NCBI RefSeq assembly: GCF_032854445.1
Contig: NC_088307.1
Coordinates: 18,476,001 to 18,540,000 of the forward strand
Length of the DNA stretch: 64,000 nt
Source of the DNA: Liolophura sinensis
Taxonomy: Eukaryota > Mollusca > Polyplacophora > Chitonida > Chitonidae
Direction of reading: 5' to 3'
A program made the translations under genes and the position numbers. Below, piece by piece: positions 32,201 to 50,600 of this stretch. How positions within the stretch are numbered: the stretch's first letter is position 1; each line of letters opens with the position of its first letter. Below the pieces are notes generated by a model. That model was given only the letters and a program-made list of their open reading frames with translations, was not told where the DNA came from and searched no databases.

Positions 32201-35200
32201 ACGGCCTGAAAAATAAACCTGCACGTAAATTTTTGTTCATAAAGCCAAAGTAGAATAGGCTCCGGATATATTATCATACTCATGCTCGTACTACCGCTTG
32301 TGGAGCATGGTTTTACTGTTAAAAGCAGTTGGCATGGTAGGTTTGTGGGTGAAAGGACCATTTACCTTCCATCATAAATCACACTTCACACGTAGAACTG
32401 CTCGTCAATAAGTTGCCGGTTTACCTTTGGCATTCCGGTTTCCTGCACTCATAAAAGTGACCGTCATCGTACGAGTGAAACATTCTTCAGTATGACTTTA
32501 AACATGAATTAGTCATTCAATCAATCAATCTGTCAATCGATCAATCGATCTACCACGATTAGACGCTGTATGTTTTGGTATTTTTCAGTCGCCACGAAAG
32601 AAGAGGACATCCAGAGACAAGATGTTGTGTTCTTTGAATCCATCGATTTACATAACAGCTTCTTTTTCCTGACCTATCAGCCAAGCTTTGTAAGAGAATC
32701 ATACAACGATCATAGGCATCATGAAATTCTCTATTTCATATATTACATTATTTTTTGTATTTTTCAAATACAACCAATTTATTTGATTGATTGGTGTTTT
32801 ACACCGTACTAGAGAATATTTCAATTATAGGACAGTTGCGAGATTTTAGGATTGAGAAAAGACTCAACTGGAACCCAGTTAGTGTATTTGCTTTGTAGAA
32901 AAATAACACCACAAGACGCGCCAAGAAATACCAAGAAATAATAGTTTGCATATTATTCTTTGATACTGTTAGGTTTCGCGTTTCTGGACTTCATGGCAAT
33001 AGTCTCTGGTATTTCCATATCTTTTTCTCAGTTCCTATCTGCAAACGAGCTCGGATTGCGCTGTTTATTTTCACAACGTTCGAGTTCATCAAGTTTCAAT
33101 TGTAGTCTGTTCTGAAAGCTTTAAAAAAATTTTAAGCTATGAAATGTGTATGCATAGCAGTGATATTATGTTAAAAACTTTAGGAGTGCGGAGAGACAAT
33201 GTCATAAGGGCGCCCGTATACAGCTAAATTCCCGGAGTGAGCTTGTTCTCATCATGGAGTATAACTTTGATACTGTTGGTGATCTCGCCTTGGTGTACAG
33301 CTTTGATACTGCTGGTGGCCTGGCCTTGGTGTATAGATTTGATGCTGCTGGTGATCTCGCCAATGTGTATAGATTTGATACTGCTGATGATCTCGCCTCG
33401 GTGTATAGATTTGATACTGCTGGTAATCTCTCCTCGGTGTATAGATTTGATACTGCTGGTGATCTGGACTTGGTGTATAGCTTTGATACTGTTGGTGATC
33501 TCGTCTTGATGTACAGCTTTGATACTGCTTGTGATCTCGCCCTGGTATACAGCGTTGATCCTGCTGGTGATCTGGCCTTGATGTACAGCTTTGATACTGC
33601 TTGTGATCTCGCCCTGGTATACAGCGTTGATCGTGCTGGTGATCTGGCCTTGGTGTATAGCTTTGATACTGCTGGTGATCTGGCCTTGGTGTATAGCTTT
33701 GATACTGATGGTGACCTGGTCTTGCTGTATAGATTTGATACTGCGGGTGATCTCGTCTTGGTGTACAGCTTCGACACTACTGGTGATCTCGCCTTGGTTC
33801 TGCTGGTGTTCATTTTACTTCATTTTTGTATCCATTGTTACTCATTCGTTAAATTCCATAGGAGATTTATTTTGTTTTCAGTTGGAGATGCGTGAAGACT
33901 ATGTTGCGAAAGATTTGCCACTAAAGCTGAAATTGTTCGAGGACTTTTTAGGAGACCGGAAATTCTTCGTCGGGGATAAGGTAAAACTGCAGATTTGAGC
34001 CTCGCGTGAGGACTTGTGTATTAAACGAAGTCTATCTCTAATTGGTTAATGGCATGAATGAATGAATGAATGAATGAATGATTATGTCAAAACGCCTCAT
34101 TTGAAATATGTCCGCTATGTCGTGGCAATTTAAGGACTTGAAGGATGGTAATTGACCACAAAAACGTGGCCGTAGGTTCGAGCTTGTCGGCTGGAAATGC
34201 GGGGTTCAGCTCGATCCAAGTCATGACCTAACTACCCAAGCGTACATGTACATACATACAATTCCAAGTCTGAACCACACACGTGACCTTAATATCAACA
34301 ATCATGCTCTGGTCAGCCGTGTTATGTCGGGTGTCTTTGGCATGCGCGCCACTGAGGCAGCACTACGTCTACATTACTCCAGACGCCTGGCCCGATCAGT
34401 AGGGCAGGTAACAAAAATTCAGTTACTGGATCAACGTCGGTAATAGAAGCCTAATTCTACCTAAGCCCTGGTGCTAGAGGGTGTCTAAGTTGTTACTATG
34501 TAAGCATTTGCATGAACCGTTAGAAAAAAAACTCCAACTGAGTTAAATTGGCAAGAAGCCGTATTTCACCGGTTATGTTAAGCATATTATGACACTGTGA
34601 TAGCAGCTCTGGTTTTACTCTCTATACTACAAGTCTTTTCTTCTGCATGGGAAATACCGTCTTTATATGACCGGAATGATCTTGAAAACAAGGTTTTTGA
34701 AAGGAAGTCCTACCATATTTCCTCTTATGACTTTTTGCATAAACCCGCCTCGCGCAGCAGTTGTCGACCTAGGTCATACGGAACAAGGATGCTCTGTAAT
34801 TGTCTTTGCTGGTGACAATGAATTAATTGTGTCAATTTCAACATTCCATGATCCATTCCTATTTTCCGGGTCAAAGTGATCTTGCAGAAAATGTGATTAA
34901 TTATATGCTATACGACATTCCATTTTTTACGGACTTTTGTTTGTTTTGCTGTCCGTTATAAAATGGTGTAAACTATTTCCATACAATCCGTTCCGGCCTT
35001 ATTTGAGACGTCGACCATGTCATTTTCGAGGATTTCCCGGTTACCTCAAATAACTTGTTCTCTTGAAGAGTGAGTCAAATCACATTTTCTGGTAGACATC
35101 CCCAAGTTTCTGCTTTCTTGCAGAATGGGATGGACCTGACATTTTCAAAGTTTGTTCATGTTTTCATTTATACAGGTAAATTTCGCTGATTTCAACGTGT

Positions 35201-43829: not shown

Positions 43830-44520
43830 ATCATTATACAGAGCTGTACACACATATGCTAAATGTACATGTGATACAGCACACAAGACTATTTCTCATA
43901 CAGCACATAACGGTAAAAGGACACAGGACTCATGCTATTTCTCACACAGGACACATGCTATTTCTCACACAGGACACATGCTATTTCTCATACAGAACTA
44001 TTTCTCATACAGCACAGGGCTATTTCTCATATATCACACTGGACTACTTCTCGTACACATACTGTTTTTCATACAAGAGGATGTACCATTTCTCAAACAG
44101 CAGACAAGATTATTTCTCATACAACAGACAGGATTATTTCTCACACAGGACACATGCTATTTCTCATACAACATGGAGGACTATTTCTCATACAGCACAC
44201 AAGACTGTTTCCTATAAAACAGACTATTTCTCATAGAACAGACAGGACAATTTCCCATACAGCACACATGATGTTTCTCATATAACACACAGGACTATTT
44301 CTCATACAACCCACAGAACTATTTCTCATACAACCCACAGAACTATTTCTCATACAGCACACAGAGCTATTTCTCCTACAGCATGCATGATGCCTTCATA
44401 CAGTACACAGGGCTATTTCTTAGATATCAGATGTACTTTTTTCATACAGAAGAGGGGACTTTCTCACACAGAAGAGGAGGCTATTTCTCACACAGTATAC
44501 ACTAGCTATTTCTATTACAG
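43830..44520. repeat. Degenerate ~24-bp minisatellite just downstream of DARS2
   Basis: Many irregular copies of CTATTTCTCATACAGCACAC with AGGA spacers, period about 20-26. It ends at the DARS2 stop codon, so it falls in the DARS2 3' UTR or immediate 3' flank. Confidence 0.88.
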
Positions 44521-44529
44521 CACATTGTG

Positions 44530-44690
44530 CTATGTGTCCTTTATCTGTATGTGATACACATCCAACTCCTCCTGAGACACTACCGCCGGGGCTTTACTCA
44601 TTGGATCTTTGCCATCATGTGACTTGGGGAAGGCTATTACATCACGAATACTTGGAGTTCCGCACACTACGGCCATAAGACGATCCAGAC
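44530..44690 (-). CDS. DARS2: DARS2 last exon and stop
   Basis: After gtgttttcag it encodes [20 protein letters not shown] through [15 protein letters not shown] at 44532-44530. Confidence 0.94.
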
Positions 44691-47600
44691 CTGAAAACAC
44701 AAGATAACTTTTGTGTTCTATACATATTTTATCTGAGTATAACAAAGATTCTAGTACTAAAGCTAACCAAGATCACTTCTAATTTCAACACCACCAAGTA
44801 CAGCATCTGGCATGGAGCAAACCTTTGGAAAGGTAGTGGCCTCAGAGTTGGCACCGAACCAAAAAAAAAAAAAAACCCCAAAAAACCAGAAAAAAACAGA
44901 TGGTTCAGTGGTGAACTAGGTCTAGATATCTGAAATATCCCCTTTACATCCCTCAACATTCCGAAAAGTAAAAAATTCATTACTGCACTAAGACCCTTGA
45001 ACAGGAATTAATTAAGAAAATAATTACACTTTAGTAATTACACTTAAGCAAGCACAAGTTTAGATGGCAGAGAAGATGTATTTTCATGGAAAGAAGTTCA
45101 GTATTTCAGACAGATAGACAGACGGACGGACAGACGGACGGACAGACAGACGGACAGACAGATGAACACACAGGGTGATTCCAGCATACCTCCCTCCCCA
45201 ACCCCTTAACTACAGATTAAACCTTACCCAACGCTATTCCTCCATGAAGGGGATATCCAGACTCTAAGGCTTCCAGCAGGTGAGACAGTTCCTCCATGAA
45301 GGGGACACCCAGACTAAGTCATCCAGCAGGTGAGACATTTCACTACAGATCAAACCTTACCTAACGCTGTTCCTCCATGAGAGGGACACCCAGATTCCAT
45401 GGCATCCAGCAGGTGAGCCTCCATGAGGGGAACACCCAGATTCTATGGCATCCAGCAGGTGAGACAGTTCACTACAGATCAAACCTTACCTAATGCTATT
45501 TATCCTTGAGGGGGACACCCACACTCTAAGGCATCCAGCAGGTGAGACAGTTCACTACAGATCAAACCTTACCCAATGCTATTCCTCCATGAAGGGGACA
45601 CCCACACTGTTAGGCATCCAGCAGGTGAGACAGTTCACTACAGATCAAACCTTACCCAACGCTATTCCTCCATGAGAGGGACACCCAGACTGTAAGGCTT
45701 CCAGCAGGTGAGACAGTTCACTACACATCAAACCTTACCTAATGCTATTCCTCCATGAGGGGGACACCCACACTCTAAGGCATCCAGCAGGTGAGACAGT
45801 TCACTACAGATCAAACCTTACCTAATGCTATTCCTCCATGAGGGGGACACCCACACTCTAAGGCATCCAGCAGGTGAGACAGTTCACTACAGATCAAACC
45901 TTACCTAATGCTATTCCTCCATGAGGGGGACACCCAGACTCTAAGGCATCCAGCAGGTGAGACAGTTCACAACAGATCAAGCCTTACCCAACGCTATTCC
46001 TCCATGAGGGGCACACCCACACTCTAAGGCATCCAGCAGGTGAGACAGTTCACTACAGATCAAACCTTACCTAATGCTATTCCTCCATGAGGGGGACACC
46101 CACACTCTTAGGCATCCAGCAGGTGAGACAGTTCACTGCAGATCAAACCTTACCCAACGCTATTCCTCCATGAGGGGGACACCCAGACTCTAAGGCATCC
46201 AGCAGGTGAGATAGTTCACTGCAGATCAAACCTTACCTAATGCTATTCCTCCCTGAGGGGGACACCCACACTGTAAGGCTTCCAGCAGGTGAGACAGTTC
46301 ACTGCAGATCAAGCCTTACCTAATGCTATTCCTCCATGAGGGGGACACCCACACTCTAAGGCATCCAGCAGGTGAGACAGTTCACTACAGATCAAACCTT
46401 ACCTAATGCTATTCCTCCATGAGGGGGACACCCAGACTCTAAGGCATCCAGCAGGTGAGACAGTTCACTACAGATCAAACCTTACCTAATGCTATTCCTC
46501 CATGAGGGGGACACCCAGACTCTAAGGCATCCAGCAGGTGAGACAGTTCACTACAGATCAAACCTTACCTAATGCTATTCCTCCATGAGGGGGACACCCA
46601 GACTCTAAGGCATCCAGCAGGTGAGACAGTTCACTACAGATCAAACCTTACCTAATGCTATTCCTCCATGAGGGGGACACCCAGACTCTAAGGCATCCAG
46701 CAGGTGAGACAGTTCACTGCAGTCCTCCTGTGAAAAGATTGCATCCAAGAATCATGTTGTGTGGCTGCTTGAAACAAAACAACACACACAGAACAGCACA
46801 TAAATTTCTGACAAAGTTTATCAGATGATGGACAGATGGAACTGCTGACCATGAAAAATATGGTCAAAGAACGCTGAAAAACAGTAGGGTTTGTCTCAAA
46901 TGGTTGACTGATCGATTGATTGGTTAATGTCATTAAGAATGTTTCACTGATCTGACAACAGTCAAGTTTGTGGCTGAAAGTTCTTACCTAGGCCTAAGTG
47001 TACATGTCAGCATGTGGTGTAAGTTTGGTAGCCTGGCAACAAGCGTTCAAGGTAGAGTTTTTACATAGAAATGCACGAATGGTCAAAGAGGTAGAAGGAC
47101 AGATTAAAACGACTGCCTATTACAATTTTTGCGGTGGGCCAGATAAAGATAGCAAATATCTCCTTTCCCTTTCATGGCCAGATATGCCAAAGGTAAAGGG
47201 AGATAACTGTAACCAAACTGTCAATCTCTATTTCACATTTAATAATAAGAGAAAAGACAACAAATAATATAACCTTACAGTTTATGGTTTCATGTATATC
47301 GGCAGAGAGAGGTGGAAACAGACCCAAACAGCCACAGCCATTTTGTTCTGACTTTTTGGATAACTCTATAAGTGTATTTTTAATCTGAAATTCCTATGAA
47401 GACACGGGATACGCCATGCAATAGTCAAACTGGAATCATGGCGTTGCATCACTTGCACTGCACGTTCATACAGCCAAAAGGCAAAACAATATCTGTGATG
47501 TCAGCAGAAACAGCTGCGTTCTCAGATTATAGAAATAACTTGTGCCTGATTGGTTGATAATTGGCAACATTCAGACTTTCTTAATGCACTTAGTTTTGCT

Positions 47601-50600
47601 TAATTTGACCTGTGATATCTTGGTTATACAACATCACAAGACATAAAAGCTTTTTAACTTTTATGTGCTCATGCATATATATGTTTAGCCTAGTAGGAAT
47701 TTTTTTTTAAGTTTCTTTGTGAAAATTGATTAATTTCTTAAAAGAAAATGATAAGTGTTAGCATCAAAAGTATCATTTTAAGCCTTTTACGTGCTTCTGA
47801 AAGTGGTAGTGCCTCCTGGCGGCAGAACACAGAACTACGAGTTTCCCGTTGCTACTGAACCAGGAAATCCATTGGCCCAAGTCAACAAAAAGATGATGCT
47901 AGTATACCTGTCTATATTCACGTTACAATTTCAATCACCAAAAAACAGATGGCAATTCTCTGCTTATTTCAACACCAAACTTATCCTTATATGATATGCA
48001 TTTTCTTGGGGACTGATATAACAGTTATGTTAGTCCTAGGTTCGGTTGTATTAAACAGTACTTGACAGGTAACTCTCCCAAGCAAATTTTACCCATTCAC
48101 AATAGGTGGGCACCTGGACATTTCGGGCCCAGACTGAGCCAGAGAATACTGACACTGGGCTCAGACTACCTGGCAGACAGGGGTCATGTATATTCCAAGC
48201 TAAATTCACAAAACTTAATTATTCATGGGCCAAGAACTTGAAATCTGCATGAATCTGCACAAATTTTTTAGCATAATTGGACAATGTTTTGTTTTACAGT
48301 TATTGCATGGTTACCAACAACCAATCAGAATCAAGGAGATCGCTGAATATGCATAACTTATGCACAGTTACACAAACTTGAACCAGCACACCAAATTTCA
48401 TCAGACAAAAATCGTGTATGCTGCCTGGAAATCAAAGCATGATGACCATGGGCAAACACAAACGGAAATTACATGTACGATCCCTAGCTTTTTTATTTAT
48501 CTATTTAGTTTATTTATTTGATTGGTATTTTACGCCGTACTCAAGAATATTTCACTTATATGCCGGCTGCCAGCATTATGGTGAGAGGAAATCAGGCAGA
48601 GCCCGGGAGAAACCCACAACCATCCGCAGGTTGCTGGCAGATCGTCCCACTTACGGCCGGAGAGGAAGTCAGCATGAGCTGGACTTGAACTCACAGCGAC
48701 CGCATTGGTGAGAGGCTTCTGGGTCATTACGCTGCGATAGCGCGCTAACCAACTGAGCCAGGGAGGCCCCTCTAGCTTTTTTAAAAGAGTGGGATAATGA
48801 AAAATTTCATCTATGTACCTGTACATTTCTTTCACAAACAATGACAACTTTTTCACCAAATACTTTTGATGGATTCTACAATCACAAACACAGAAATGCC
48901 TGGACCAAACCTGAAGTACTTTCTCCAGCACGAATCTCTGTTCATCGGCATTGTGTATTCGGATTGACCCGCCTCCAATCTCGCTGCCATTTACCACCAG
49001 ATCGTAGTGCTGACTTCTGACCTGTGACACAAATAGGCCGTACCAGACTGTAACTCCAAACAGCGATCGAACACTAGTTTTGATTGCACAATGTATCTAC
49101 CATGGGCTTATATGGTATTCGACCCTAAAGTTTGTCCGTGACAAAGCTATGAATTTTTGGGCCTAATTCTGAGAGTTCTAGTGATCTTAGCAAGAGGCTC
49201 TGAGGTTTGTTAGGAAAGTAGGACAAAGTTTCAGAACTCAAAGAAAATACATTATGTCCTAATAACAAAGCTTCTTCAAGACTTAACACACTGCTCTCAG
49301 CCGTAGCATCTCCTTCCATGGAAAGTGTCACATACTGCATAAATGAACAAAACAGAATACAATCCGAGGCCCGTTTCACAAGGCCATCATAATGCTGAAT
49401 CAAACACGTAATTACCATGGTGACGTATGGAATGGAAGTTACGTAGGCCAGGCACAGTTTGTGACAGCTGCGGAAAATAGTTCCCCAGGACCGTTCACGC
49501 ATCTCTCATATTTATTTCCTTACTTGATTGGTGCTTTAAGCCGTACTAAGGAATATTTCAGTTATATGATGGTTTCCAGCTTTATGGTGTTATGAAACCA
49601 AGCAGAGCCCTGGAGGAAACCCACGACCATCCACAGGTCATATTAAGACAGACCACTGGACATTGCCAGTGCCACATGACTCAAAAAGCAGTCTAGCTCA
49701 AACATTTTTCTAGCCTCAACAAAATGAGCAAATATTTAGCTTGTTAATTAACAAAATTTTGTCTCTATACCTGATTGGGGTGAGTAGTCAGGAGGTGAGC
49801 GTCATCTGGGTGAGCAGCTGTGAATGGATGGTGAGCGGATTCCACGCCCCCTACATCAATACAAACAACAATACAAACAACAATACAAATGGATGATTTT
49901 CATTCATTTCTTTGCCTCTACCAAGTATTCACAGCTATGCACTGCAGTACAAACCACACCAGAGACACAAGCCCAAAACATCTAGCTCTGGCTTCTGATA
50001 CTGACATTCCACTCTCTTTCTGATGAAGAGTTTCAAGGCTTGGAATGTATCTAATGTAATATGCCCTCCAATGCACAGTAGGGGAAAAAACACACCATAT
50101 AAACATTTTAAAACATTAAATGACATTTTATTCATATTTCTGATAAAGCAAAGTGAAGTACTGAAAGAAAACTGAATAGATAAGTTGAACATAGCTCCTG
50201 GGATTTTTATCTGGTAGAATCTGTTTTTCAAGTAAGGATTCTTACCTCCCTCCTTAGGCAAAAACAGAGGAAAATCCACAACCCATAAAAAGTTGAAATC
50301 TGCTTTCTTCCGCACCTCAACACCTGATAACAAAACAGATGAAAGGAGACTTGAGATCAAACAACTTTTGACACCTGTCTCACTGGCTTCCAGAGGCGCA
50401 CATGACACCTCTCTCCCTTCAGGCACTTCTTATGTTCACAAACACTCAGCTCATTAAGTTTCTTCATTGTTCGTCTACTCTAAAAAAACATTTTGTTAAA
50501 TTCTTTTCATGCATTAATGTCTCATAGTAGAAGTCGTGAAACCCAGTTGCCGAACATTTCTAACAAGTCACATGGTACAATGGAGCTTTTTCACCTTTAG

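Follow-up and report, generated by a model that had tools for sequence, protein, structure and literature searches.

A tandem array of exon ends and 5' splice sites in a DARS2 intron of the chiton Liolophura sinensis, and arrays of the same design elsewhere in its genome

In the chiton Liolophura sinensis, the end of an exon of DARS2, the gene of the mitochondrial aspartyl-tRNA synthetase (AspRS), is repeated in tandem together with its 5' splice site. The array, found in a window of 64,000 nucleotides (contig NC_088307.1, positions 18,476,001 to 18,540,000), comprises 19 coding cores when the exon is included, and the 18 extra cores lie downstream in the adjoining intron. Judging from its sequence, the array is a mirage minisatellite. 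We consider it likely that it arose by tandem duplication across the exon end, followed by expansion, and that it is removed with the intron, the donor attached to the exon being the one used. Arrays of exon ends with their donors appear to be common across the genome, from the sequences we sampled. We also lean, if only a little, towards the view that, throughout this genome, minisatellites are preferentially born or retained at 5' splice sites, in hundreds or more introns, and that 3' splice sites are kept free.

The DARS2 gene and the exon at the array edge

The minus strand of the window contains the 3' part of DARS2. The C-terminal exons, once joined, had the human mitochondrial AspRS as best match (4ah6, E=7.9e-43), and a 113-aa C-terminal piece matched the bacterial-type AspRS model TIGR00459 at 3e-39, with a score under the whole-protein cut-off because the scan took in just a piece of DARS2. 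This is the sole mitochondrial AspRS gene that we found: the C-terminal protein had 18 matches in the genome, every one of them at this locus, where the array exon is the only source of the residues it encodes. Bacterial AspRS proteins served to map 15 exons, whose collinear matches span C13:18520533-18560470; this mapping gave no placement for a mid-protein stretch, around residues 311-368 of the bacterial protein from L012.

The phase of the exon at the array edge agrees with the flanking DARS2 exons (Table 1). The copy at 46652-46727 had been predicted to be the only one with a real acceptor, and it is exactly this 76-nt exon. Reading frame and homology indicate that the GT at 46651 would be the donor in use, and the exon-attached donor is the expected one because the reading frame requires it. 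We infer that the use of this first donor would be exclusive.

The window contains other minisatellites. One of a 24-bp type (ATACAGCACACAGGACTATTTCTC) lies at 43874-44500, starting a short way past the stop codon of DARS2 (44530-44532), and is probably within or beside the 3' UTR of the gene. Another, of 36 bp and about 15 copies, lies at 33255-33798, upstream of an ORF that presumably resembles a mu-class glutathione S-transferase.

Table 1. Features of the DARS2 arrays and conserved exons running into arrays at donor-motif loci. Positions are those of the window unless a contig or locus is given.
Feature	Position	Strand	Remarks
Last DARS2 coding exon, beyond the array intron	44530..44690	-	stop codon 44530-44532
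Irregular far-end copies (4)	45209..45471	-	donors at 45360 and 45227, lost in two; continues into intron sequence GTTTAATCTGTAGTTAAGGGG
Regular 83-bp decoy copies (14)	45472..46633	-	GTAAGG in each; no difference between the exon copy and its three nearest neighbours
5' splice site GTAAGG (TAG/GTAAGG) of the 76-nt exon	46646..46651; GT at 46651-46650	-	from sequence
DARS2 exon, 76 nt, 14th of 15 mapped	46652..46727	-	first array copy; sole copy with real acceptor
3' splice site TTTTCACAG of the 76-nt exon	46728..46736	-	from sequence
Preceding DARS2 exon, 5' limit approximate	48911..49024	-	from sequence and homology
Exon 7 array, ~88 bp	L010:1700-2240 = C13:18550700-18551240	-	five extra copies, donor intact in four
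Annexin exon and array	donor-motif locus		1.3e-6
Ankyrin exon and array	donor-motif locus		9.8e-12
Raptor exon and array	donor-motif locus		4.6e-5, PDB search on chosen exon
RRP7A exon and array	donor-motif locus		8.2e-11, PDB search on chosen exon
SUFU exon and array	donor-motif locus		5.1e-10
Iron-hydrogenase-like exon and array	donor-motif locus		3.5e-13
SNF2-type helicase exon and array	donor-motif locus L066		1.8e-18
ClC-7 exon and array	donor-motif locus		1.1e-5, PDB search on chosen exon; exon frame picked by eye

Anatomy of the 83-bp array

TRF placed the array at 45418-46722, with 15.7 copies and 94% matches. Reading the minus strand extends it to about 45209-46716 and gives 15 regular 83-bp copies, from 46716 down to 45472, the first of which is the exon itself, plus 4 irregular ones. 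The unit consists of about 66 nt of exon end and 17 nt of intron, and spans the genuine DARS2 exon/intron boundary. GGTAAGG occurs 17 times, once as the genuine donor and 16 times as a decoy; the donor is lost in 2 of the 19 coding cores, both irregular copies at the far end. We found no copies of the array exon upstream, within 4 kb. A genome search using the array unit returned 19 matches, every one inside the DARS2 array, and no other locus carrying it.

These results bear out the original prediction that a DARS2 exon end and its donor were amplified in tandem (by the TRF array, the frame, the acceptor and the 4ah6 match), and about 19-fold, as the count of cores confirms. The prediction of some 18 near-identical decoy donors in the downstream intron was right as to near-identity and too high in number, and the 3' edge lies about 20 bp outside the predicted interval, 45230-46727, at 45209.

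Turnover and decay of the copies

Over 83 bp, the exon copy does not differ from the three copies that follow it, the regular copies further out show 0 to 6 base differences, and 66 of the 83 columns are invariant across the 15 regular units. To go by these sequences, the copies are homogenised by turnover, and the most recent turnover was at the exon edge. The distinct coding changes in the decoys comprise 3 synonymous, 9 nonsynonymous and 2 stop changes, out of 51, 129 and 9 possible ones. Stops and amino-acid changes are thus near the unconstrained expectation, which argues that the decoy copies are not maintained as protein. A coding minisatellite in DARS2 is ruled out by the stops, the nonsynonymous changes and a period that is not a multiple of 3.

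The donor hexamer is unchanged in all 15 regular copies. Since 16 of the 83 six-column windows are equally invariant, this is uninformative on selection either way, and we dropped the idea of selection on the decoy donors.

Strength of the decoy donors

The decoy donors match the genuine one in sequence and in predicted pairing with the 5' end of U1, for which we used what we take to be the U1 sequence: -10.1 kcal/mol for the genuine TAG/GTAAGG and -9.7 for the TGG variant present in 5 of the 16 decoys, compared with -14.5 for a consensus site. Counting the genuine donor, 12 of the 17 sites read TTAG/GT and 5 read TTGG/GT. A genuine donor weaker than consensus makes competition plausible, in which case the decoys would recruit U1, splicing would be slowed or diverted, and DARS2 transcripts with extended or cryptic exons would make up a measurable share and be degraded; a slowing of transcription had been proposed as a further consequence. 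We regard this as unlikely. With a decoy donor in use, the exon would grow by 83 nt for each regular copy, and in-frame read-through past the first donor gives GGT AAG GTT TGA, where TGA is the third codon after the donor. An extended exon would meet this stop at once and, with an in-frame TGA directly past the exon, decoy use should truncate the transcript before the last exon. It had also been proposed that GATCTGCAG before TGAACTG could act as a weak acceptor; this sequence does end 3 of the 14 regular decoy units, but the stretch upstream of the putative acceptor CTGYAG is purine-rich and has no polypyrimidine tract by eye, which counts against active decoys. In amphioxus, mirages are reported to leave splicing undisturbed (PMC3087553, PMC3902484).

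A far less probable course is recursive removal, where 83-nt pieces would be spliced out stepwise at TTAG/GTAAGG, each step regenerating the exon end and its donor and leaving no trace in the mRNA. The AG/GT at 12 of the 17 donors fits this scheme, and a small intron can be as short as 83 nt. By eye, however, no polypyrimidine tract lies directly upstream of TTAG, and several AGs are closer to the nearest possible branch point.

A second array in DARS2 and motif counts in the genome

DARS2 harbors a second array, on exon 7, with a period of 88 bp and 4.9 copies according to TRF, which reading the DNA confirmed. Its unit is made of the exon end (..GAGTTTACACAG), GTGAGT and about 25 intron bases. 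Exon 7 and the 76-nt exon are the two of the 15 mapped DARS2 exons with same-strand copies within 4 kb; the other 13 have none within that distance. The local copies of both exons are all downstream and all repeat the 3' end.

In the genome, triples of the donor motif AGGTRAG at periods of 72-102 numbered 9591, as compared with 3452 for the mirrored motif, on a single-site baseline of 162427 vs 132674; these and the following are counts of overlapping matches, weighted by array length, and not of independent arrays. The full donor 9-mer CAGGTGAGT gave 1073 triples vs 28 for its mirror, in a comparison of triples alone, and GAGTGGA gave 1457 vs 4845 for its mirror AGGTGAG. The acceptor-like motif TTTTNTTNCAG, the one strict motif that represents the acceptor side and one with few matches, showed no excess of triples (47 vs 65), while its single sites are 1.83 times commoner than those of the mirror (29841 vs 16312). 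Such match counts do not tell birth at donors from retention. The excess in number of arrays is small in the first 2.94 Mb of C1, where the matches listed form 16 donor 7-mer groups (two heptamers) vs 6 groups for one of the two mirrored heptamers.

Conserved exons at donor-motif loci

To see whether such arrays derive from exons, we merged listed matches within 2 kb into groups. The donor sample included 15 of the 16 7-mer groups among 100 listed matches (one array edge per locus, one or two ORFs, 20 ORFs in all) and the 10 of 10 9-mer groups among the matches listed (one ORF per locus). As control, we took all 22 of 22 GAGTGGA groups among the matches listed, with the longest ORF per edge on the inward strand; 35 ORFs came from 19 of these groups and 3 groups had no ORF of 25 codons, and at some control edges TRF took a neighbouring array. 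As the match lists begin at the start of C1, the samples are local.

At 8 of the 25 donor-motif loci, the array is continuous with a conserved coding exon and repeats the end of that exon with its donor (Table 1). The SNF2-type helicase among them is presumably Mot1/BTAF1. For the other 16 loci, besides L039, there was no firm homology either way. L039 (C1:1309466-1310999; L039:967-2500) was kept out of the clear cases: its 81-bp array is antistasin-like (6e-8), with cysteine repeats and GGTGAGT, and the frame is open through the translated stretch of copies. From its sequence, it could be either a tandemly repeated coding domain or a set of in-frame donors from which products of different length would arise.

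In the Pfam edge test, 6 of the 25 donor arrays and 1 of the 22 control arrays exceeded the cut-off (one-sided p=0.07; 5 of 25 when only the longest ORF is counted, since the match of L039 came from its second ORF). These were L032, L036, L039, L064, L066 and L070 among the donor loci and L057 among the controls. The latter matches a Core-2/I-branching enzyme (1.7e-6), and its array repeats an exon end and GTAAGT. The control L057 being itself an exon-end and donor array, included by chance, arrays not selected for a donor also include such cases. It was also the one control put through the PDB search, where it had no match. Below the cut-off were the donor loci L031, L037, L041 and, with a trimmed exon, L040, as well as the controls L048 (EVC2_like, 0.02), L060 (Peptidase_C98, 0.033), L080 (APH, 0.0049) and L081 (Lysostaphin_N, 2.5e-4, 21.5 bits vs a cut-off of 60). 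No match over the cut-off was obtained for L040, which we take to be TMF1-like, or for L071.

In the cases seen, arrays had about 5 to about 90 copies. Among 84 exon matches to the myosin head (PF00063) and 32 to tRNA-synt_1 (PF00133) we found no exon-end array; the myosin scan scored 65 of 213 candidates, and short decayed copies are easily missed. With a second array in DARS2 and such arrays common in the genome, our results do not support the original statement that coding sequence rarely becomes a minisatellite.

The scans yielded some further observations. The same part of the myosin head was matched twice, by two open stretches 1.1 kb apart (C1:26642195-26642299 and C1:26643291-26643386), which are probably alternative exons. 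At L080:700-1390 (C1:33890950-33891640), a 75-bp array repeats a kinase-like exon end (..CLVHGDLHTGSVMVNQSLAK) with a GTATCC donor. On the minus strand of C10:25028582-25028932, 85-bp tandem units contain TTTTCTTCCAG, which resembles an acceptor, as well as the donor-like CAGTGTAAG; an entire exon may be repeated in tandem here. A 100-bp array at L078:605-1454 (C1:24718432-24719281) lies immediately 3' of the stop codon of a gene without Pfam match, which presumably resembles a heparan-sulfate sulfotransferase. Eight haemocyanin beta-sandwich units of molluscan type lie in tandem on one strand at C8:37880506-37891931; we take this family to be a molluscan marker, and on this ground rejected a cephalochordate host, which the occurrence of mirages in amphioxus might suggest.

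Function or artefact

The over-representation of donor motifs in array matches genome-wide would suit an array that is a selected functional element, e.g., a cluster of U1-binding sites protecting the pre-mRNA from early polyadenylation. We find this very doubtful: many other windows in DARS2 are as invariant as the donor hexamer, the donor has been lost from two of the 19 copies, and the arrays at identified exons, with periods anywhere between 26 and 94 bp, have no design in common. The DARS2 array is real, and there is next to no chance that its length or existence is a repeat-assembly error of the kind by which one amphioxus mirage was misassembled in a genome draft (PMC3087553), given the many different variants among the units, the irregular end copies, the unrelated loci of the same assembly having the same design with sequences of their own, and an assembly of 609 Mb in 632 contigs, which suggests long reads.

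Discussion

Tandem duplication across the exon end, followed by expansion, would have started from an 83-bp segment lying between two short similar sequences, CTGCAGTGAA in the exon and CTGTAGTTAA past the donor. The start of the unit in the exon and the intron after the last copy are alike in 8 of 10 bases. We infer a birth between these sequences, by slippage or unequal exchange, though the junction homology may instead mark where an incomplete last copy begins. The array would then have expanded into the intron. With the extra copies beyond the first donor and the exon-attached donor in use, it would leave with the intron and the protein would be unaffected. The array may thus be tolerated rather than useful, most likely because the extra copies lie past the first donor. 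Duplications on the acceptor side or in the exon interior would harm the product more, so that donor-side arrays would be those that survive, and arrays attached to an exon would be homogenised again and again with a selected copy.

A mirage in the Adh3 gene of amphioxus was reportedly described by Canestro et al. in 2002. Mirages are minisatellite-like tandem duplications of exon/intron boundaries, described in amphioxus globins, at the acceptor of BflGb6 and at the donor of BflGb9; data for Adh3 and RT-PCR of the globins suggest that splicing is regular (PMC3087553). They also occur in amphioxus TnC and PGBD5 (PMC3902484). The DARS2 array resembles them as a minisatellite that spans a boundary, has its copies in the intron, keeps many splice signals and undergoes homogenising turnover. 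It differs in its host, a mollusc, and in size, with 19 cores as compared with the 6 and 3 units of the two BflGb6 haplotypes (PMC3087553), and there are two arrays in one gene. Both sides are reported in amphioxus, whereas DARS2 has arrays on the donor side only and the acceptor motif that we tried showed no excess; the amphioxus mirages come with RT-PCR, whereas the DARS2 array is known here from DNA. Our searches of open-licence PMC papers brought up neither a report from molluscs nor a count of such arrays across a genome. Hence, while the kind itself is known from amphioxus, the mollusc host, the genome-wide scale and the donor-side bias look new.

Other systems share parts of this design. 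The human gene 6-16/IFI6 is said to contain a minisatellite that provides several splice donors. Going by its title, that report concerns, as in DARS2, a tandem array with repeated splice donors, but at a single human locus and with donors that the title implies are used, whereas the DARS2 decoys are identified by sequence. In intron gain by AGGT tandem duplication, described for potato RdRp (PMC4974935), a segment with exon/intron border signals is likewise duplicated, and it shares AG/GT with 12 of the 17 DARS2 donors; there the duplication makes a new intron, whereas the DARS2 copies sit in a pre-existing one. The human internal tandem repeats described in PMC2812944 are similar in being variable minisatellites, some of them at exon-intron borders, that may alter splicing, but they lie in recent segmental duplications, about half of them in coding exons, and average about 4 units of 30 bp.

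Work on how one of several identical 5' splice sites is chosen has relied on a few artificial duplications. A genome with many natural donor arrays, of about 5 to about 90 copies, would allow the rule of donor choice to be measured with standard RNA-seq. In annotation, gene predictors and searches at exon level can be misled by exon ends that are copied in tandem. The asymmetry between donors and acceptors suggests which splice signals can be multiplied harmlessly, and donor arrays may be raw material for intron gain and for alternative donors. If 5' splice sites are indeed hotspots, the spliceosome would have to select, reliably, the first one among many equivalent 5' splice sites, and the genome of this chiton would hold hundreds of natural experiments in 5'-splice-site competition, with arrays re-seeded from the exon copy under selection.
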